From Oscillospiraceae bacterium (lineage in GTDB: Bacteria; Bacillota; Clostridia; Oscillospirales; Acutalibacteraceae): DNA of 53,937 nt. The position numbers were made by a program, and so were the translations under genes. Positions within the stretch are counted from its first letter, which is position 1, and each line of letters starts with the position of its first letter. The notes under the pieces are model-generated. The model did no database searches and had not been told where the DNA came from. It saw only the letters and a list, made by a program, of their open reading frames with translations. Below are positions 1 to 34,195 of this stretch, in pieces. Where the stretch lies: the NCBI GenBank assembly GCA_015065725.1, contig SVPV01000013.1:1-53937 (forward strand), written 5' to 3'.

Positions 1-1280
1 TCTGCTGTTAATAAGAACGCTTTCGATGTACGTAATTCCAAAATTCTAGGCGAACTAATGGTTACTTCTTCATTATCCGGAGATTCTATTGATAAACCCT
101 TTTCCCCTTTTATGATAAACAACAAACCGTAATTATCCTCGTCGACCTTACCAATATTAATATAGAAATTATCTTTTGCGTCTTTAGAACTCAACCTATC
201 CACAATCAAGCCGAATTCTTCAAGATTGTTAACCGTCACCCATTCGCCGTTCTTTAGAATTTGTACTGCAAAGCAATCATCAGCGTTCATAACAACTCTT
301 TGATTGCCTGCACGGTTAATAGCTACAAAACCGTCAGTATGATTTATTGAAACGTTACTGTATTTTTTACCCTGTTGTACCGAATTATTAGCGACGTTTT
401 GAGCGTTATTAGCGATACGGTCGGTTTCTATCGCCAGTGATGCATTATCCCGTACAAAAACGCCTACGGTCACCCGGTTTTCTCTTGGGTCGCCACATTC
501 TGTATAACTAATAATTCTTTTACTCATTGTTGTGTTAGCCAAAGAGTCATAAACTGTTATGGTGTCGCCCAAATTAAACTGATAATTCTCATATCCCGCT
601 TTTTTCTGAAGGTCAACTATTTTAATATCATAACTCCAACCATTGTTTTTTTGCCAGGTACGATGCACACCGTTAAGATTCACGCCGTATTCAAATTTTA
701 TTCCGTCATCTGTACCAAGCCGCTCGGGCAGATTAATTATAAAATTATCAAAATCAACCTCTAGACCAAGTTTAGACATTGCTATTAAAGCCTCACGTGC
801 TGTTACGTTTGTTGAGCCGTGCATACCAAAACTTACGATACCAATATCGACGGTTTCGCCTATAGAAAAAACTGTATTTGCGGGTGTTCCGTCAAGCAGC
901 TTTGCCTCTGCCAAAATATCCTCAGCTATCTGCTTTATGGTACCTGCAAAGCTATATCCGTCAGGAATAGTGTATTCCGACAATCTATACGATATATGCT
1001 CGGCAACAACCTGCGTAATGTTTTGGGTGCCGCTATCACCGTCAATTCCCGCAATATCAAACAACTGTCCGTTATACTTAAAAATTGAATTTTCTTTTAT
1101 AAGGTTAAAGACACTGTCGTTATTCGCTATAGAAAAAGATAACGTATAATCTCGCATAAGCTCCTTGCACTTTGCTACGTTAAACGCGTGCGTTGTGCTT
1201 CCTGATGCACTACCTAAAGTAAGTTTTTCATTGTTTTCGTATACTTTTATTCTTTCGGACATATCAAATGGATTTCTCAT
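1..1280 (-). CDS. Phage tail-associated protein, partial (runs off left edge)
   Basis: An open frame of about 426 codons runs from 1280 to the window edge without a stop, so the C-terminus is missing. The N-terminal half resembles the prophage tail endopeptidase or minor structural protein family: a beta-rich start, a region reading QVVAEHISYRL, and later SYDIKIVDLQKKAGYENYQF followed by a LGDTITVYD segment typical of these proteins. Its likely role is at the tail tip, in host contact or tail fibre attachment. Two in-frame ATGs exist, at 1280 and 1262, and neither has a good ribosome-binding site. The expected distal-tail and tape-measure genes are not upstream. The family assignment is from remembered sequence features, not a search. 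Confidence 0.75.
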   Translation of the reverse strand, partial: MRNPFDMSERIKVYENNEKLTLGSASGSTTHAFNVAKCKELMRDYTLSFSIANNDSVFNLIKENSIFKYNGQLFDIAGIDGDSGTQNITQVVAEHISYRLSEYTIPDGYSFAGTIKQIAEDILAEAKLLDGTPANTVFSIGETVDIGIVSFGMHGSTNVTAREALIAMSKLGLEVDFDNFIINLPERLGTDDGIKFEYGVNLNGVHRTWQKNNGWSYDIKIVDLQKKAGYENYQFNLGDTITVYDSLANTTMSKRIISYTECGDPRENRVTVGVFVRDNASLAIETDRIANNAQNVANNSVQQGKKYSNVSINHTDGFVAINRAGNQRVVMNADDCFAVQILKNGEWVTVNNLEEFGLIVDRLSSKDAKDNFYINIGKVDEDNYGLLFIIKGEKGLSIESPDNEEVTISSPRILELRTSKAFLLTA

Positions 1281-1471
1281 ATAATGAACTTATTGCTATT
1301 TATGGTGCTGTAAAACAAACCCGAGATACAACCAATGAACTTCTTTCCAAAATGGACTTGTTAGACCCAGATAGAGAAGGCTCAAAAAAACTTATTGCTA
1401 CTTGTAATTCGGTTTTACGTAAATTAAACGCAACATTTAAAGAAAACAACCTTAAAAAACCTAATATTTAA
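1268..1471 (+). CDS. Small hypothetical protein, 67 aa, antisense to the tail gene start
   Basis: The product is hydrophilic, probably helical, with no cysteines apart from one near residue 46 and no membrane segment. Its amino-acid mix looks like real protein rather than a shadow frame. However, no Shine-Dalgarno site precedes the ATG, and its 5' end overlaps the start of the minus-strand tail gene by 13 bases. Its 3' end overlaps the end of a 48-codon minus-strand frame (1461-1607). A plus-strand terminator lies about 950 bases downstream, at 2411-2446, so a rightward transcript here is conceivable. I do not recognise a family, and it may not be a gene. Confidence 0.4.
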   Translation: MDFSYNELIAIYGAVKQTRDTTNELLSKMDLLDPDREGSKKLIATCNSVLRKLNATFKENNLKKPNI

Positions 1472-1607
1472 AATATTTATTTGTATTTTTTATTAGTTTT
1501 CTGATTTTTTGTTTTTTCAAATTTCTAATACGGTCAAACATATTTTTTAAAGCTTCGATGAATTCTTTTGGGTTTTCTTCGTTGCTTTTTTTATATATTA
1601 ACTTCAT
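1461..1607 (-). CDS. Small basic phage protein, 48 aa
   Basis: A 48-residue lysine-rich frame begins with ATG at 1607. The ATG overlaps by four bases (ATGA) the TGA that closes the reading frame running on from the cysteine-rich gene upstream, which is a usual sign of translational coupling. A strong GGAGG lies about 22 bases upstream of this ATG. It is better spaced for an earlier ATG that would give only four codons. The sequence has a predicted amphipathic helix and no recognised motif. It would be the last gene of the leftward small-gene cluster before the tail gene. No function is proposed. Confidence 0.45.
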   Translation of the reverse strand: MKLIYKKSNEENPKEFIEALKNMFDRIRNLKKQKIRKLIKNTNKYFKY

Positions 1608-1699
1608 TTAATTTTCATTTTCCTTTCCTCCAATACCGTCTGTGCGGCTGCTAACCGTATCTGATAACTTCGGCGGATTTCCTTGTCTTCACACTTTAA

Positions 1700-1975
1700 T
1701 TACCTACGCCTCATTTCGTCAATTAAGGCTATAAGCTCAGGCATATCCAATCGGTCATACTTTGCCCTGTTTTCTTTTATTACTTCGGGCGACACTAAAT
1801 ATGAGCCTATCGGGAAATAACTCTTTTTGCAGTGTTGACCGTTTGGAAGTAAAGACTTGCTGTAGTTTTCACACAATTCTTCGCATTGTTTACAAACGAA
1901 TTTACGCCTTATATCGCAAAAACGCCAGGTATCACGCTCTTCATTGGTAGCACCGCACGCACAACATACGGCCAT
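1700..1975 (-). CDS. Cysteine-rich phage protein, 91 aa, possible zinc-binding
   Basis: The N-terminal 35 residues hold seven cysteines, starting VCCACGAT and continuing FVCKQCEELC, in a spacing that suggests one or two zinc sites. The C-terminal part is helical and charged. The start lies two bases after the stop of the membrane/coiled-coil gene upstream, so the two are co-transcribed. The same frame continues for 31 more codons after the TAA stop (to 1604), with protein-like composition, and ends in a stop that overlaps the next start. That suggests a nonsense change or readthrough in a once longer gene. Family not recognised. Confidence 0.6.
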   Translation of the reverse strand: MAVCCACGATNEERDTWRFCDIRRKFVCKQCEELCENYSKSLLPNGQHCKKSYFPIGSYLVSPEVIKENRAKYDRLDMPELIALIDEMRRR

Positions 1976-1977
1976 CT

Positions 1978-2364
1978 TTAAGCCTCTGCCGTTTCGTCGG
2001 TAGGCTGACAGTCAGTTTTCTCGTCCACATCCGAACGTACTGCGGCAAGTGCTTTATGTAGCCTGTCCTCAAGGTCCATTTTTTCAAGTTCTTCACTTGC
2101 CTTTTCGCTTCTTATCTCTGCTAAGTTTTCAGTTTCCTCGACAACACGACTCAGCAAAAAGCCGTTTCTCGCCTTAAGGCTCTCTATCTCTAACGACTGA
2201 ATACGTACTTTGCTATGTAATATGTTATTCAAAGCCCTTGTTTTTTTAAGCTCTTTTTCGCTCAAAAGCCAACCAACCGAGCAAAACGCACCTGTTACTG
2301 TCAGTCCGCTTAAAATAAATATTGCTAACTTTAAAATCCAAGAATAATATTCTAACATTGACAT
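1978..2364 (-). CDS. Phage membrane protein with coiled coil, 128 aa
   Basis: A single membrane helix at about residues 10-32 is followed by a heptad-rich, highly charged region from about 35 to 110 that is likely a coiled coil, and an acidic tail. Two ATGs, at 2364 and 2358, are possible. AGGG stands nine bases from the second, so 2358 may be the true start. The gene sits in the leftward cluster just upstream of the cysteine-rich gene. This topology is seen in phage spanin-like, holin-like and superinfection proteins, but nothing here identifies which. No function is assigned. Confidence 0.6.
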   Translation of the reverse strand: MSMLEYYSWILKLAIFILSGLTVTGAFCSVGWLLSEKELKKTRALNNILHSKVRIQSLEIESLKARNGFLLSRVVEETENLAEIRSEKASEELEKMDLEDRLHKALAAVRSDVDEKTDCQPTDETAEA

Positions 2365-2410
2365 TTACCCTACTTTCGTATATAATTTAATAAAGATATT
2401 TTTTCTTTTT

Positions 2411-2446
2411 CGCTTTACGGATGCCTGTCCGTAAGGCGATTTTTTT
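2411..2446 (+). terminator. Intrinsic terminator pointing rightward
   Basis: An 11-bp stem (2411-2421 with 2428-2438, one G-T pair) and a 6-base loop are followed by a run of seven T on the plus strand. On the minus strand, where the neighbouring genes are read, the hairpin has no T run behind it. It would therefore stop a rightward transcript antisense to the small phage genes. Confidence 0.7.
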
Positions 2447-2473
2447 GTTTTAATTGCATTTTTATCACCAAAA

Positions 2474-2779
2474 TTAACTTACTATACCTAGTCTTGCTTT
2501 TAAGGCGGCAAAATACTCGGCATCTTTTTCGCAACGTGCAATAATATCATCAAATGCGTAATCAATAGCCCTTTGCAAATCTGCACGGTTTTTTGTGCGT
2601 TGTTCTGCATCAGTTTTCCTTGTGTATGAAACAACTATTGGTCCACCTTCGCGAAATTTATCGGTTATATTTACAACCTCGGCATCTTCCGGGATGTCGA
2701 GTGCCTGCCGTGCCGTTTCAGAAAGCTCGGTTAAATAATCAAACTCTTTAAGCCTTTTCATACCTTTTTCTACCGCCAT
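2474..2779 (-). CDS. Hypothetical phage protein, 101 aa
   Basis: The start is the ATG at 2779, because AGGAGG stands eight bases before it. An in-frame GTG nine bases upstream is less likely. The product is soluble, acidic and mostly helical. It has a short beta-like stretch around residues 40-55 and a C-terminal helix rich in Ala, Asp and Glu. It lies immediately downstream of the Cro-like gene in the leftward early transcript, the usual place for early phage regulators or replication accessory genes. No family is recognised. Confidence 0.6.
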   Translation of the reverse strand: MAVEKGMKRLKEFDYLTELSETARQALDIPEDAEVVNITDKFREGGPIVVSYTRKTDAEQRTKNRADLQRAIDYAFDDIIARCEKDAEYFAALKARLGIVS

Positions 2780-2847
2780 ATATAACACCTCCTTCTATGC
2801 TATGTAGAATTTAATTTGTCCTATGCAGTTGACTGCAAAAGTAACTA

Positions 2848-3042
2848 CTAGCCCTTTGCCGAAATTATTTCGTTAATTGCAGTCATGAATATGTCAGGAG
2901 CTTCCTTTGGTGTTTCCTTGCCGTTAAGTACTCGACATACCCATTCACGCGACTTACCTATTTTTTGAGCCAATTCTGTTTGGCTAATGCCATAAATGTG
3001 CATTTTTGAAACAGCCTCTCCCGTCCATTCCTTTACGCTCAC
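2848..3042 (-). CDS. Cro-like helix-turn-helix regulator, 64 aa
   Basis: The reading frame contains a classic helix-turn-helix, SQTELAQKIGKSREWVCRVL, in the XRE/Cro family. A GGAGG seven bases before the GTG at 3042 sets the start there rather than at the first in-frame codon at 3075. The gene is divergent from the CI-like repressor at 3255 and shares a control region with three operator palindromes. One of these (3074-3091) lies just upstream of this gene. The arrangement is that of a lambda-type lysogeny switch, with this gene the first of the leftward lytic transcript. Binding to those operators is inferred, not shown. Confidence 0.8.
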   Translation of the reverse strand: MSVKEWTGEAVSKMHIYGISQTELAQKIGKSREWVCRVLNGKETPKEAPDIFMTAINEIISAKG

Positions 3043-3073
3043 GTTCACACCTCCAAAATTTACACTTGATTTC

Positions 3074-3091
3074 ACTTCACAAATGTGATAT
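3074..3091. promoter_or_regulatory. Operator O1 of the prophage switch
   Basis: ACTTCACAAATGTGA matches the left half and centre of the palindrome seen at O2 and O3. It is the most degenerate copy on its right side. It lies 31 bases upstream of the Cro-like gene start. Confidence 0.65.
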
Positions 3092-3134
3092 ATTATTAAT
3101 GCTACATAACAACTAAATTTAAGTTTTTAAATTT

Positions 3135-3152
3135 ACTTCACATTTGCGAAGT
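3135..3152. promoter_or_regulatory. Operator O2 of the prophage switch
   Basis: The 18-base palindrome ACTTCACATTTGCGAAGT starts 61 bases from O1 and 63 bases from O3. It overlaps the -35 box of the rightward promoter, so a repressor bound here would block or regulate its own operon. Confidence 0.75.
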
Positions 3153-3165
3153 GCATTTTTATACT
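3137..3165 (+). promoter_or_regulatory. Promoter of the repressor-to-integrase operon
   Basis: TTCACA (3137-3142), a 17-base spacer and TATACT (3160-3165) form a good vegetative promoter. Each box differs from consensus at one base. The -35 box lies inside operator O2. Confidence 0.65.
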
Positions 3166-3197
3166 ACATTGATTTTGCGATGTTGTCAAGAGATTTT

Positions 3198-3215
3198 ACT
3201 TCACTTTTGCGAAGT
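3198..3215. promoter_or_regulatory. Operator O3 of the prophage switch
   Basis: ACTTCACTTTTGCGAAGT repeats O2 with one base changed. It lies 40 bases upstream of the repressor start and downstream of the rightward promoter, where binding could act as a roadblock. Confidence 0.75.
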
Positions 3216-3254
3216 TTGTTATTGTTGCATAAATTTTATTAGAGGTGTTTTGTT

Positions 3255-3599
3255 ATGTTTTACGAAACTTTTAAAGATTTATGTAAAGTAAAAAACATAA
3301 AACCAACTCACGTAGTGCAAGAGCTTGGTCTATCGTCGGCTAATATGTCTAATTGGAAAAGCGGAAGAAATCCTAAAACAGATATACTAAATAGAATCGC
3401 CGACTACTTTGATGTATCCGTTGACTATCTTCTCGGTAATGAGCCAAAAGAAAACCCAGCCGCTAACAGCGACGAGGCATTACGGTTTGCTCTTTACGGA
3501 AGCGATAGCCAAGACATCACAAAAGAAATGTTAGATGAAATTCGAGAAATAGCCGCAATTAAAAGAGAGATGAACAGAAGAAAGAATGGTACTAAATGA
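3255..3599 (+). CDS. CI-like XRE-family prophage repressor, 114 aa
   Basis: The N-terminal 60 residues form an XRE helix-turn-helix, including HVVQELGLSSANMSNWKSG and the common ending DYFDVSVDYLLG. The C-terminal 50 residues are charged and helical and probably dimerise. There is no LexA-like self-cleavage domain. AGAGGTG stands before the ATG. It is the first gene of the rightward operon and overlaps the ImmA-like gene by 14 bases. Such pairs (ImmR/ImmA of ICEBs1) hold an element silent until the protease cleaves the repressor. The three operator palindromes upstream are its likely targets. Confidence 0.9.
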   Translation: MFYETFKDLCKVKNIKPTHVVQELGLSSANMSNWKSGRNPKTDILNRIADYFDVSVDYLLGNEPKENPAANSDEALRFALYGSDSQDITKEMLDEIREIAAIKREMNRRKNGTK

Positions 3600-3981
3600 T
3601 TTGTATGCTTTTGCAGAACAACACGATATTGATGTTGACTGTATGAAGCTTAAAACAATGCAGTGCGTTACACTTTCGCTTGACGGAAGTAACTGCATAA
3701 TCATCGACCCTTTTCAGTTAAAATCAAGCATTGATGAAATGGTTAAGCTCGCCCATGAGATAGGACACTGTGTTACAGGCTCGTTTTATAACGAATACTC
3801 TCCGCTCGACATAAGAGCAAAGCACGAACACCGTGCCGATAAATGGGCAATAAAAAAACTCATCCCAGAGGATGAGTTAAAAAACGCACTTGCATTTTGC
3901 ATAAACCGTTACGAACTTTCCGAACACTTCGGCGTATCAGAGGATTTTATGCAAAAAGCACTTGACTTGTATTTGCAATAA
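3586..3981 (+). CDS. ImmA/IrrE-type metalloprotease, 131 aa
   Basis: The zinc protease motif HEIGH is at residues 57-61, with a likely third ligand in KHEHRAD at about residue 81, as in the ImmA/IrrE family. The known role of such proteins is to cleave the neighbouring repressor in response to a host signal and so induce the element. The start overlaps the end of the repressor gene by 14 bases, so the two are translationally linked. The family assignment is firm. Cleavage of this particular repressor is inferred from the gene pairing. Confidence 0.9.
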   Translation: MVLNDLYAFAEQHDIDVDCMKLKTMQCVTLSLDGSNCIIIDPFQLKSSIDEMVKLAHEIGHCVTGSFYNEYSPLDIRAKHEHRADKWAIKKLIPEDELKNALAFCINRYELSEHFGVSEDFMQKALDLYLQ

Positions 3982-3987
3982 AAGGAT

Positions 3988-5031
3988 TTGATAGGCTTGA
4001 TAAATAAAGATTTTACAACCATTACAAAAGTTGTGGGTGTTACTAAATTTAATGAAAACAACTATCCCATACAAATGATACTACAAAATTTGTGTCACGG
4101 TGATAAATTGGTTTTTATAAGGGATTATAGTAATCCCTATGATGAAAATGCAATAAAAGTTTATGCTTGGTGCGAAAAACAATTAACACATATAGGTTAT
4201 ATTTCAAAAGAACTTACCGCTAACCTTTCACCTTTTCTTGATGATAACTCTGATTTAGATTTAGATGGTATAGTTAAAGAAATAACGGGTGGCTATGACG
4301 GTAAATCCTACGGATGCAATATAGAAATATGGATTAATAACCCTAACGAGCCTGATTATTGGGAAGCTAAAGCTTTTGCAGATTGGATGGTAAATCAAAC
4401 TTACACGTCCGTAAACGAAAGTTCGACACCTCAAAAAACGAGCAACGAATCCTATGATAGCACGTATAACAACTATAAGAATGAAAAAGCAATTAAGGAA
4501 AACCGCTCAATTTTGATTATCAGTTGTATTATTGTATTTCTTTTGGTTATGGTATTGATGCAGATTATACTTAATATAAACGATAGCGAAACGTACGATA
4601 TTTCTTCACCTAATCTTTCAAACTCGAATCAAAATAATTATGATAATACTTATTCTGATTATTCTTCGACTACATCAAATTACAAACCGCCCATAACGAT
4701 GGAAAATATTGACATCGCATATAATATACTCCCACCAAATTTAATTAATACGGTTTATGTAGAAGCAACTTACACAAACAATTCAAGTTTAACTATAACA
4801 AATTTTTCTTTAAAGATATTGTTAAGGGACAAAAATGATACTTCGTACCTTTCTTGTTCTGATACTGTTTTGCCGGGCGGAACCTCTTATAAATTTAAAA
4901 CATTCGGTCCCAACACACAGTTATACGAAGATGTAGAATTTTTAAAATGCTCTTTAACCGTTATGGACCCACACAAAGGCGAAATTCACATTGATTACGA
5001 TTACAAATTAGATACTTATGAAACATGGTAA
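3988..5031 (+). CDS. HIRAN-domain protein with one membrane helix, about 347 aa
   Basis: Residues 10-100 match a HIRAN domain: HGDKLVFIRDYSNPYDENAI (37-56) followed by HIGYISKELTANL. HIRAN domains are known to bind DNA ends or sit in DNA-repair proteins. After a low-complexity Asn/Ser/Thr linker comes one membrane helix at about 175-196, a second Asn/Ser/Tyr-rich linker, and a C-terminal domain of about 110 residues that looks beta-rich. Codons 1 and 4 are both TTG. AAAGGA is too close to the first, so 3997 may be the start. It lies in the lysogeny operon between the protease and integrase. The domain pairing is unusual and its function is unknown. Confidence 0.75.
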   Translation: MIGLINKDFTTITKVVGVTKFNENNYPIQMILQNLCHGDKLVFIRDYSNPYDENAIKVYAWCEKQLTHIGYISKELTANLSPFLDDNSDLDLDGIVKEITGGYDGKSYGCNIEIWINNPNEPDYWEAKAFADWMVNQTYTSVNESSTPQKTSNESYDSTYNNYKNEKAIKENRSILIISCIIVFLLVMVLMQIILNINDSETYDISSPNLSNSNQNNYDNTYSDYSSTTSNYKPPITMENIDIAYNILPPNLINTVYVEATYTNNSSLTITNFSLKILLRDKNDTSYLSCSDTVLPGGTSYKFKTFGPNTQLYEDVEFLKCSLTVMDPHKGEIHIDYDYKLDTYETW

Positions 5032-5047
5032 TATATGAGGTGATTAT

Positions 5048-6553
5048 ATGCCCGAACTATTAACAGCTATATATTTAAGAAAGAGCCGAGCGGATGAGCA
5101 GAGCGAATCAACCGAAGAAACTCTACGCCGTCATAAAGAAACCTTACTTGATTTTATTGGCAAACAACCGACGATGCACGTTTATGCTCTATATGAGGAC
5201 GTGGTTTCTGGTGACAGCCTTTACGCTCGACCTCAAATGCTAAAGCTCTTACAGGATGCAGAAGCCGAAAAATTTAACGCCGTTCTATGTATGGATATTG
5301 ATAGATTAGGCAGAGGCTCTACTAGTGAGCAGGGACTAATACTTGAAACCTTTAAAGCTCACGATATTAAAATTATAACCCCGAGAAAGTTTTACGACCT
5401 TAACAACGATACTGACGAAGAGTATGCCGAATTTGAAAGCTTTATGGCAAGACGAGAACTCAAAATGATTAAAAGGCGTCTACATAACGGAACGCTTAAA
5501 AGCATATCAGAAGGTTGCTATCTTGTTAATGCTCCTTACGGTTATAAAAATGTCCGTATAAATAAAAAAGCTACCCTCGAAATTAACGAGGATGAGGCTA
5601 AATTTGTCCGTATGGCATTTGATTTATATGTTAATTCGGGATTAGGTACCCAAGCTATTGCTCACACATTAAACGGATTAGGTGCACACCCGCACCGCTC
5701 TGACCACTTCAACCGCACCTCAATTGCCGCGATGCTTCGCAATAAAGTATATATCGGTAAGGTCGTTTGGAATAAAAAGCACACTATTAACCGTGGTGCT
5801 GTTGATAAAAAAATTAAAACTATTTATCACGATAAATCCGATTGGATGGTTTACGACGGTCTACACCCTGCTATAGTGGATGAGGAACTATTTAACCGTG
5901 CTAATGAAATTCTTTCAAGCAAATACCATAAACCTTACAATGACGGCACTATACAAAATCCGCTCGGCAGTATTCTTAAATGTAAAAATTGCGGTTACGG
6001 TATGCAACGCCGACCATATGGCAGTAGAAAATATCAAAGCACTCATTTGCTTTGTGCTACAAAAGGCTGTTGTTCTTCCTCCCGTCTTGACTATGTTGAG
6101 CAGGCGGTTATTGATAACATCAGAGCAAAGCTTGACGAACTTAAGGCTAATAAAGGTGTATCAAAAACCCCTCCCGATTTTTCCTCTGTGTTGTTAGGAA
6201 TAGATAAGGAATTAAATAATCTTCTAAAACAAAAAAACAGCCTGCACGACCTATTAGAACGCGGAATTTATGATATTGACACATATCTTGAAAGGTCAAA
6301 AATCATTGCCGAACGTTTAAAGGAACTCGAAACACAAAAGCATAGCATACAAGCAAAGCAAGAAATTTCTTCAGTACAAAACACCGAGGCAATAATAGAA
6401 AAAATGGAAAATGTGTTAAAGCTTTATTGGAACTCCGCTCCACCGCAGCGTAACAAACTGCTCAAGGAAATAATTATAGACGGAACATATTACAAAGAAA
6501 AAGGTTGGAAACCCAACCAATTCCTAATCTCGCTTAATTACCGAGATTTATAA
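5048..6553 (+). CDS. Large serine integrase of the prophage, 501 aa
   Basis: This is a full-length large serine recombinase. It has an N-terminal resolvase domain with nucleophile Ser13 in YLRKSRADE and a DIDRLGRGS region, then a recombinase domain (about 150-290). A zinc ribbon starts at CKNCG near residue 311, and a coiled coil lies at about 375-440. Proteins of this type join attP and attB without other factors and need a directionality factor for excision. A GAGGTGATTAT site precedes the ATG. It is the last gene of the lysogeny operon, and its stop lies about 10 bases from resumed host coding sequence, as expected beside an attachment site. Confidence 0.95.
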   Translation: MPELLTAIYLRKSRADEQSESTEETLRRHKETLLDFIGKQPTMHVYALYEDVVSGDSLYARPQMLKLLQDAEAEKFNAVLCMDIDRLGRGSTSEQGLILETFKAHDIKIITPRKFYDLNNDTDEEYAEFESFMARRELKMIKRRLHNGTLKSISEGCYLVNAPYGYKNVRINKKATLEINEDEAKFVRMAFDLYVNSGLGTQAIAHTLNGLGAHPHRSDHFNRTSIAAMLRNKVYIGKVVWNKKHTINRGAVDKKIKTIYHDKSDWMVYDGLHPAIVDEELFNRANEILSSKYHKPYNDGTIQNPLGSILKCKNCGYGMQRRPYGSRKYQSTHLLCATKGCCSSSRLDYVEQAVIDNIRAKLDELKANKGVSKTPPDFSSVLLGIDKELNNLLKQKNSLHDLLERGIYDIDTYLERSKIIAERLKELETQKHSIQAKQEISSVQNTEAIIEKMENVLKLYWNSAPPQRNKLLKEIIIDGTYYKEKGWKPNQFLISLNYRDL

Positions 6554-6563
6554 TTATGTATAA

Positions 6564-7331
6564 AGTGTTTGGTGTTGCGATAGGGACTGCCTTGAAGATT
6601 TAAGATGTTTTTTCTCGGCAGAAGCACAAGCCTATGTTGAGCGTGCAATAAGCGTAAGACTTAAATCTGCAGAGGTTTTAAACGTATACATTGACGTTGA
6701 ACCCGTAAACTTCAACAAGGGATTTTATTCCTGTGATTTAACCTTTTTCTTCAAACTTGAATTTGATTTGTTTATGTCGCCGCATAGCTGTCCTGTAACA
6801 GTTAAAGGAATTTCGTCCTTTAACAAAAAGGTTATACTTTTCGGCAGTGAAGGTAACGTAAAGGTATTCTCAAGCAAATCCCCAGAAAACGACTACGAGC
6901 GTTGTGAAAAAGCCGCAAGAGAAACCTCAAATATGCCAAAATGTGTTGTACAAAGCGTTGAGCCTGTAACCCTTAGTGCCAGAATTGGTGAGATAAGAGA
7001 TTGCTATGAAAACGTACGTCCGATACCTGAGAGTGTTTGTGAGTGCATAGGCGGTTCTATAGTGACCGACCTTGATGCCGGCACACCTACAGTTTATGTA
7101 ACTCTAGGATTATTCACAATAGTTCAATTAATACGAAACGTACAAATGCTTATACCTGTATATGATTTTTGTATACCCGAGAAACAATGCGAGGATACCA
7201 CCGACCAACCTTGCGACGTATTCCGCAAAATAAAATTCCCAACAGACGATTTCTTCCCACCGCGTCCTTGCGATATAGAGGGCAGTGACTGTTTTGCTTG
7301 TTGCAACACACCAAGCGATGAAGATTGCTAA
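6564..7331 (+). pseudogene. 3' part of a conserved clostridial gene interrupted by the prophage
   Basis: The frame is open from 6564 to a TAA at 7329-7331 but has no proper start. It begins right after the integrase with CDRDCLED, and continues through LNVYIDVEPVNFNKGFYSC and KKVILFGSEGNVKVF. I remember these features from an uncharacterised, cysteine-rich protein family widespread in spore-forming Clostridia. In that family about 30 further residues precede this point. The missing 5' part should lie beyond the left end of the prophage, outside the window. An alternative start is the TTG at 6768, which would give 187 residues. Precise excision of the prophage would rebuild the gene. The family memory is not backed by a search. 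Confidence 0.75.
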
Positions 7332-32716: not shown

Positions 32717-34195
32717 ATGACAAACACAAACATATATAAGGATATCAGTGCTAGGACCGGCGGTGATATTTACATAGGAGTTGTAGGTCCGGTAAGAACA
32801 GGAAAATCCACATTTATAAAGCAGTTTATGGATAAGCTTGTTATGCCTAATATGGCAGAGGAATATCAAAGGGAAAGAGCCAATGATGAGCTTCCTCAAG
32901 CATCTTCAGGCAGAACAATTATGACAACCGAGCCTAAATTCATACCTGAAAAGGGGGCTTTAATAAACATTGATGACACAGCTAACATGAACGTACGCCT
33001 TATTGACTGTGTAGGATATATAGTACCAAGCTCACTTGGGTACATAGAGGGTAATGAACCACGTATGGTAATGACGCCTTGGTATGATGAGCCTATCCCC
33101 TTTAATATGGCGGCTGAAATAGGCACCAAAAAGGTTATTACCGAGCATTCAACAATAGGTCTTGTAGTTACTACCGACGGCAGTATAAGTGACATTCCGC
33201 GTGAAGAATATGCCGAAGCTGAGGCTAGAGTTATAAGCGAGCTTAAAGGCATTAACAAGCCGTTTATTGTGTTGCTTAACTGTATGTACCCTGAATCCGA
33301 AGCGGCATATAATTTATCGGAGGAATTATCACAAAAATATTCAGTTCCTGTAATTCCTGTTAATTGCCTAGAATTAAATGAAAACGATATTAAGAAAATA
33401 TTATCAAAGATACTGTTTGAATTCCCTGTTCGCGAAATATCTGTAAGCTTTCCTAAATGGATAAACAGTCTTCCAATAGAGCATTGGTTACGTTCTGCAG
33501 TTACCGAAGCCATTAAAAACGCTGCCGAGGACGTTAGCCGTATTAGAGATGTTATTAATTTTTCTAAAGCATTTGAAGATAGCGACAACATAGAAAATGT
33601 AGAGGTTGAGGGCATAGATTTAGGCACAGGCAACGCGGAAATTAATATGAGCATAAAGAACAGCCTTTTCTATAAAGTACTTGCCGAAACGACAGGTCTT
33701 AATGTAGAAAACGAGCAAGAGCTTATGTCTACCGTAACCGAGCTTGCAAAAATCAAAAAAGAGTATATGAGGGTTAAGGATGCACTTGACGAGGTAGAGG
33801 CTACAGGTTATGGAATTGTTATGCCTGCCATTGAAGAATTATCGCTTGAAGAACCCGAAATTGTAAAACAAGGCGGCAGATACGGTGTAAGACTTAAAGC
33901 CTCTGCACCATCAATACATTTAATGAAAGCAAACATTACAACAGAGGTAAGCCCCATTGTAGGCAGTGAAAAACAATCCGAAGATTTGATTATGTATTTA
34001 CTGAAAGAATTTGAGGAAGACCCTGTAAAAATTTGGGATTCAAATATATTCGGCAAATCCCTGCACGAGCTTGTAAACGAAGGACTACATACAAAGCTTT
34101 CACGTATGCCTATGGACGCCCGTATGCGAATAGGCGAAACTATTGAGCGTGTAATAAACGACGGTTGCAACGGTCTTGTGTGCATTATATTATAG
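32717..34195 (+). CDS. spoIVA: Stage IV sporulation protein A
   Basis: The 492-residue coat morphogenetic ATPase has Walker A GPVRTGKST at about residues 24-32, the conserved DIYIGVVGPVRTGKSTFIKQ start, and a C-terminus ending in CNGLVCIIL close to the usual one. It polymerises around the forespore using ATP and forms the base on which the spore coat is built. GGAGGAAG precedes the ATG. It is divergent from spoVAD and stands alone, ending in a strong terminator. This gene is found only in spore formers and so marks the organism as one. Confidence 0.98.
   Translation: MTNTNIYKDISARTGGDIYIGVVGPVRTGKSTFIKQFMDKLVMPNMAEEYQRERANDELPQASSGRTIMTTEPKFIPEKGALINIDDTANMNVRLIDCVGYIVPSSLGYIEGNEPRMVMTPWYDEPIPFNMAAEIGTKKVITEHSTIGLVVTTDGSISDIPREEYAEAEARVISELKGINKPFIVLLNCMYPESEAAYNLSEELSQKYSVPVIPVNCLELNENDIKKILSKILFEFPVREISVSFPKWINSLPIEHWLRSAVTEAIKNAAEDVSRIRDVINFSKAFEDSDNIENVEVEGIDLGTGNAEINMSIKNSLFYKVLAETTGLNVENEQELMSTVTELAKIKKEYMRVKDALDEVEATGYGIVMPAIEELSLEEPEIVKQGGRYGVRLKASAPSIHLMKANITTEVSPIVGSEKQSEDLIMYLLKEFEEDPVKIWDSNIFGKSLHELVNEGLHTKLSRMPMDARMRIGETIERVINDGCNGLVCIIL

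Follow-up and report, generated by a model that had tools for sequence, protein, structure and literature searches.

Does the serine integrase at the edge of this prophage mark a host gene that the insertion has split, and could the split be undone when the cell sporulates? The window, by which we mean the whole 53,937-nucleotide stretch analyzed here, is contig C3 of a 22-contig, 1.46-Mb draft genome (G000), and it opens within the prophage. The contig begins inside a tail-tip (endopeptidase tail) gene (positions 3 to 1280, minus strand; Pfam Prophage_tail, 1.8e-07, and Prophage_tailD1, 2.9e-07; PHROG tail/structural families). Next on the same strand are four small open reading frames from the ORF list in the position of early phage genes (1700 to 3075), among which the HTH-like 2848 to 3075 alone has PHROG matches, weak ones to regulators (0.0001 and 0.00095). 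The plus strand then carries a phage-type HTH repressor (3255 to 3599; PHROG regulator, 4.1e-19), an M78/IrrE-like metallopeptidase (3586 to 3981; PF06114, 1.1e-08; phrog_87, 8.1e-26), and, as element cargo between these repressor genes and the integrase, a HIRAN-domain protein with a hydrophobic stretch recognized by eye (3988 to 5031; Pfam HIRAN, 2.8e-12). The 501-amino-acid product of 5048 to 6553 (plus strand), whose 3′ end points toward the split gene, is by its domains a large serine integrase of predicted activity, having the Resolvase (2.7e-17), Recombinase (8.4e-24), and zinc ribbon (2.1e-05) Pfam domains at the expected length of ∼500 amino acids and matching phrog_95 at 9e-103. It scored below the curated cutoffs of the XisF, CcrB, and CcrC equivalogs (110 versus 375, 94 versus 900, and 103 versus 900 bits, respectively).

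Beyond the integrase, the frame from 6564 to 7331 is open throughout (255 amino acids, with no stop or frameshift) and encodes the C-terminal nine-tenths of a conserved family of ∼275 amino acids. Family homology begins at 6573, starting CCDRDCLEDLRCFF, and extends to 7331 on the plus strand (model positions 32 to 269 of 271; E value of 9.9e-109 to the family model; 83% identity to the homolog in genome G025). The earlier note had placed the resumption of host coding sequence about 10 bases after the integrase stop; the resumption is indeed close by, but the distance is 20 bases. Full-length homologs start upstream of the cut, typically as M...KEAVCIDAGRVYDS|CCDRDC, and the protein in the 28 printed homolog loci typically reads M...KEAVCIDAGRVYDSC-x-D-[RK]-DC..., with variants, of which the window keeps CCDRDC onward only. 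The suggestion that the frame lacks a start and begins mid-protein was therefore borne out, as the homologs begin upstream of 6573 rather than at TTG 6768. When this genome was searched with a homologous N terminus, the missing 5′ part turned up on another contig, at positions 62038 to 62139 of C2, where it reads MSNIKANCPGDDVCFKEAVCIDAGRVYDSCC and ends ...RVYDSCC at the matching codon before giving way to other, phage-like DNA. Neither a start at TTG 6768 nor the absence of a 5′ fragment beyond the other prophage end was found, and the observation of a split gene is confirmed: a host gene is divided, both parts are present, and a recombinase lies inside. The search of this genome's assembly returned these two pieces and no rejoined copy.

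Contig C2 ends 1.7 kb past the 5′ gene part, after a holin-like open reading frame and an M23-type lysin on the minus strand (names read from sequence). The inferred order is thus 5′ part, holin, lysin, gap, tail-tip gene, early-type genes, repressor, integrase, and 3′ part. In the window, the tail-tip gene adjoins the early-type genes (3 to 3075), as though head and packaging genes had been deleted. A search for the head family PF04860 (portal) found no member in the bin, in which both contigs end inside the element. The visible prophage therefore looks partial and may be inert.

The two phage flanks of a serine integrase insertion should mirror each other. The phage arm at 6555 to 6577 mirrors the arm on C2 at 18 of 23 bases. 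The C2 arm scored 13.0 against the reversed C3 arm, higher than all 426 control pairs, which combined arms of genomes whose cuts lie at different sites (mean, 6.1; maximum, 9.5); when the comparison was made over 26 genomes, 14 exceeded every control and 12 did not. A putative crossover dinucleotide, GA, lies at 6579 to 6580 and forms positions 1 and 2 of the codon for Asp in C-x-D-R-D-C. In 13 of the 15 printed genomes cut at the same site, GA borders the cut on either side, within the codon for Asp in C-x-D-[KR]-D-C, a count in which the C-side search pattern itself demanded that codon; the pattern had no match in the remaining two, G310 and G531, and the N side of G531 also differs. The flanks on the two contigs thus look like mirror halves of one attP of the serine-integrase type, an inverted repeat around a 2-bp crossover, as judged from sequence rather than from a reaction.

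What kind of gene has been cut? When 19 members were searched, nothing in Pfam or NCBIfam corresponded to the family (Pfam gave three stray matches at 0.02 to 0.07, each to a single member; NCBIfam gave zero), and the family had no sequence relative in the PDB and no clear fold match. Upstream of the gene start, the form AC-N15..18-CATANNNT[AG], whose −35 element we take to be that of sigma-K, was present in 60 of 75 regions of 160 nt each, which come from related genomes and are not independent. Dinucleotide shuffles of these regions gave a mean of 1.3/75 (maximum, 4), and the upstream regions of other open reading frames in the same loci gave 23/852. The same promoter form is retained on the 5′ part in G000 and on 18/28 split copies, G000 included. 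The −10 form CATATTAT has been called canonical for the mother-cell sigma factors of C. difficile (PMC3789822). On the basis of this conserved sigma-K-type promoter form, the target appears to be a sporulation-linked, late mother-cell gene. As for the host, which the earlier note had taken to sporulate, it is likely a spore former, given a spoIVA ATPase domain in the window (32717 to 33427, plus strand; PF09547, 5.8e-119) and a sigK match in a single 230-amino-acid frame at C15:86914 that is barely above its cutoff.

The arrangement recurs in related genomes. In the window's order, 394 genomes were surveyed and 310 had a family match. We re-examined 38 of these, comprising all others with two or more matches and seven with weak or shortened ones, and found 30 split and 8 not split or ambiguous. 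With the window's genome, at least 31 of the 310 carry a split copy, which is a lower bound because the rest were judged on match counts alone, among the matches listed; one of the 31, G069, has an intact copy as well. The cuts fall at model positions ∼32 to 37 (site A; 16 genomes, the window's among them), ∼74 to 81 (site C; 5 genomes), and ∼152 to 160 (site B; 10 genomes). Pieces from both sides of the cut were found in 29/31 (the exceptions are G104 and G284), and a serine recombinase is located no more than 150 bp from a junction in 27/31 and no more than 4 kb away in three more (G065, G069, and G246), with none seen for G084. The inserts range from 1.4 kb to about 56 kb. As a control, spoIVA was undivided in 28/31 of these genomes, matched over a shortened length in one (G084), and without a match in two incomplete ones. 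In G037 (L141/L142; tallied under A), the gene is apparently cut at both A and C, with the middle piece on the opposite strand; in G504 (L183 to L185), it is apparently cut at two positions; and a partial serine recombinase in L176 (G115; 2 to 1294) ends by a gene piece stopping at ∼211, a possible fourth cut position.

Other samples gave further cases. Among 80 named-genome loci kept from 570 relatives, two (L061 and L095) are split at the window's codon, and the 5′ parts missing from them were found in the same genomes, that of L095 on the same contig ∼56 kb away. Similar-looking lysins, compared by eye, lie by the 3′ part in L061 (1 to 1900) and by the 5′ part at the C2 end of G000 (L034), a placement that corresponds to opposite orientation at the same site. 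The ∼56-kb insert of L095 includes ligase-, carboxyltransferase-, and phosphopantetheinyl-transferase-like genes (146 to 5789; names read from sequence). All five viral-contig loci, three of them near-identical, hold partial genes beside a serine recombinase. Outside the order, a sample of the class comprised 148 genomes, 86 with a match, some weak; seven (G531, G463, G503, G446, G552, G504, and G508) are clear splits with a nearby recombinase, whereas G476 has two gene pieces but showed no recombinase in the region that was read, and G439 is ambiguous.

The recombinases involved are diverse. In a tree of 38 rows, 12 belong to site B; 10 of these group in a single clade (100/99), and the other two cluster with four site-C rows (100/100). 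Site C is also represented by a second clade of two rows (97/96), in one of which the site is uncertain, and by a long branch, L121, while the site-A rows are scattered over several weakly resolved lineages; the window integrase groups with seven further rows from site A, with support of 94/94 that falls short of the starred level. Across related Clostridia, this one gene is interrupted by numerous distinct serine-recombinase elements. The smallest of these, L131 (G378), L132 (G390), and L180 (G503), are inserts of ∼1.4 kb, each with a serine recombinase of ∼290 amino acids, which in L131 has Resolvase and Recombinase domains and no zinc ribbon match. In the 3.8-kb inserts of L127, L128, and L129 (G049, G230, and G161), nagB- and nagA-like genes (read from sequence) lie beside the serine recombinase and would be carried away with the excised element.

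Do the divided copies remain under selection? Among G049, G230, and G161, which share the 3.8-kb insert, the gene parts have dS values of 0.58 to 0.81, with dN/dS of 0.02 to 0.03 for the first part and 0.06 to 0.09 for the second; for the nagA-like gene that the insert carries, dS is 0.47 to 0.48. These dS values together with the low dN/dS suggest that the split was probably inherited and that both parts were kept under strong purifying selection meanwhile. The corresponding ratios were 0.02 to 0.10 in 10/11 comparisons of intact pairs (the other was saturated) and 0.04 to 0.08, where unsaturated, in the site-C trio G354, G419, and G257. Higher ratios were obtained for other split copies: 0.25 to 0.90 for G072 versus G049/G230/G161, 0.13 to 0.31 for G121 or G175 versus G367, and 0.14 to 0.34 for G071 versus the site-C trio. 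In relative-rate tests of the window copy against the intact G025 homolog, unique changes numbered 12 versus 12, 9 versus 16, and 10 versus 11, with no acceleration, while dS of the main part was saturated, and the constraint on the window copy may predate the insertion. The open frame of 255 codons and the lack of excess change agree with the claim of the earlier note that the C-terminal part keeps its protein character, and its central claim, that a prophage with a serine integrase splits a conserved gene, held up in the 5′ part, the junction, the recombinase domains, and the repeated arrangement in related genomes.

Our preferred reading, to which we assign a probability of about 0.65, is that a serine-integrase prophage, probably partial, sits in a cysteine-rich, apparently late mother-cell gene and that the insertion is reversible. 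The integrase, with a putative directionality factor, would run the reaction backward in the sporulating mother cell; excision would restore the gene there, where it is needed; and the forespore, hence the lineage, would retain the element. A search for the directionality factor found none. For timing, we looked for a sigma-E-type site, defined as ATA-N14..17-CATANNNT at most 250 nt upstream of the recombinase. Such sites were found in 5/10 small elements, three of which (L127 to L129) share descent and are not independent, and in 6/33 elements overall, versus 61/1404 controls (4.3%). Since neither a sigma-E- nor a sigma-K-type site lies in the 250 nt upstream of the window integrase, we infer sporulation-timed excision in this genome from the family pattern.

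The lack of such a site would also fit ordinary lysogeny, with a phage residing in a dispensable gene and leaving on lytic induction only, while lysogens sporulate without the protein. The gene has no match in 17 of the 36 other same-genus genomes sampled (some incomplete) and so may be dispensable, while SpoIVA is present in 52/60 relatives, and prophage-sized inserts of about 37 to 40 kb, as sized from coordinates, occupy the same site. However, both gene parts are under strong selection around an insert inherited over a dS of 0.6 to 0.8, and the insertions recur in this one gene, whereas spoIVA is mostly undivided in the same genomes; we regard lysogeny of this kind as unlikely. It is improbable that a partial prophage broke the gene for good and left the C-terminal part as a decaying pseudogene. 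The juxtaposition of tail-tip and early-type genes and the lack of a PF04860 portal in the bin would fit such a remnant, and one related split copy, in G084, looks decayed, as its second part contains stops and is shortened, stopping near model position 159 to 167. Against this, the window's fragment is uninterrupted and evolves no faster than its intact homolog, the integrase is full-length, and the arms mirror each other.

Separate expression of the two parts as a two-piece protein that functions without excision is conceivable, as the recombinase frame in some small inserts runs into the beginning of the C-terminal part and could allow read-through, but the first part at site A is only ∼32 residues long and the cut positions vary among lineages, which makes this a very improbable account. 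Hardly any weight falls on an assembly or binning artifact: the gene parts do lie on separate contigs of a draft genome, but the mirror arms tie C2 to C3, and splits at the same site are found on single contigs in G060, G121, G175, G365, G367, G310, and G065. Beyond this genome, reversible insertion would extend to a broader proposal, for which we see the odds as evenly balanced. The late mother-cell gene may be a docking hotspot across the class Clostridia, at which several serine-recombinase lineages converged on three main positions with inserts from prophage size (about 37 to 40 kb, and one of 56 kb) down to 1.4 kb with little beyond the recombinase, some with sigma-E-type sites; many gut bacteria would then carry it as a programmed-rearrangement gene, which some lineages keep in a stably split state, with the window as a phage-stage example.

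Mother-cell genes reported to be split by elements that leave during sporulation include sigK, spoVFB, spoVR, spsM, gerE, and yabG, and most of the cases in those reports come from a single species or a few of them, skin having a broader distribution (PMC4191935, PMC10747680, PMC5595907). Among the titles and abstract openings searched, with subscription papers and preprints outside the scope, none described such a gene being struck by insertions again and again at more than one site; our gene has no name that could serve as a search term. In the present survey, a single gene without a name has been split many times, within an order and outside it, at multiple positions and by recombinases that are only distantly related. 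Should excision be confirmed, mother-cell programs of DNA rearrangement would be common in uncultured gut spore formers, and the loci would offer many natural recombinase-target pairs to work on and would point to a new late sporulation gene.

The closest parallel in construction is SPbeta in spsM of Bacillus subtilis, a large-serine-recombinase prophage whose excision in the mother cell restores a sporulation gene (PMC4191935). The window case is built alike, with a large serine recombinase prophage splitting an apparent sporulation gene, but the target is unnamed, excision is known there and predicted from sequence here, and the window integrase is only ∼30% identical to SPbeta-type phage integrases (29.6%, SPbetaL7). 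The yin element in yabG of Clostridium botulinum, for which excision was observed at one site in one strain, is likewise prophage-like, encodes a recombinase, and sits in a gene under SigK regulation in a member of the Clostridia (PMC10747680); here, in contrast, many lineages, several sites, and another gene are involved, and excision is a prediction. As with skin, a prophage-like element between two parts of the mother-cell gene sigK (PMC5025042), an element separates two parts of an apparent mother-cell gene, although the target is not a sigma factor and the sigK match in this genome is in one frame. The gin element in gerE of Bacillus cereus, a 28.6-kb nonphage element with three serine recombinases in a late sporulation gene (PMC5595907), is comparable to the cargo-bearing inserts in related genomes, whereas the smallest inserts here are 1.4 to 7 kb, with one recombinase detected in each of those listed. 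The window element thus resembles the sporulation gene-intervening elements skin, SPbeta, yin, and gin, in what would be a multisite hotspot within an unnamed gene.
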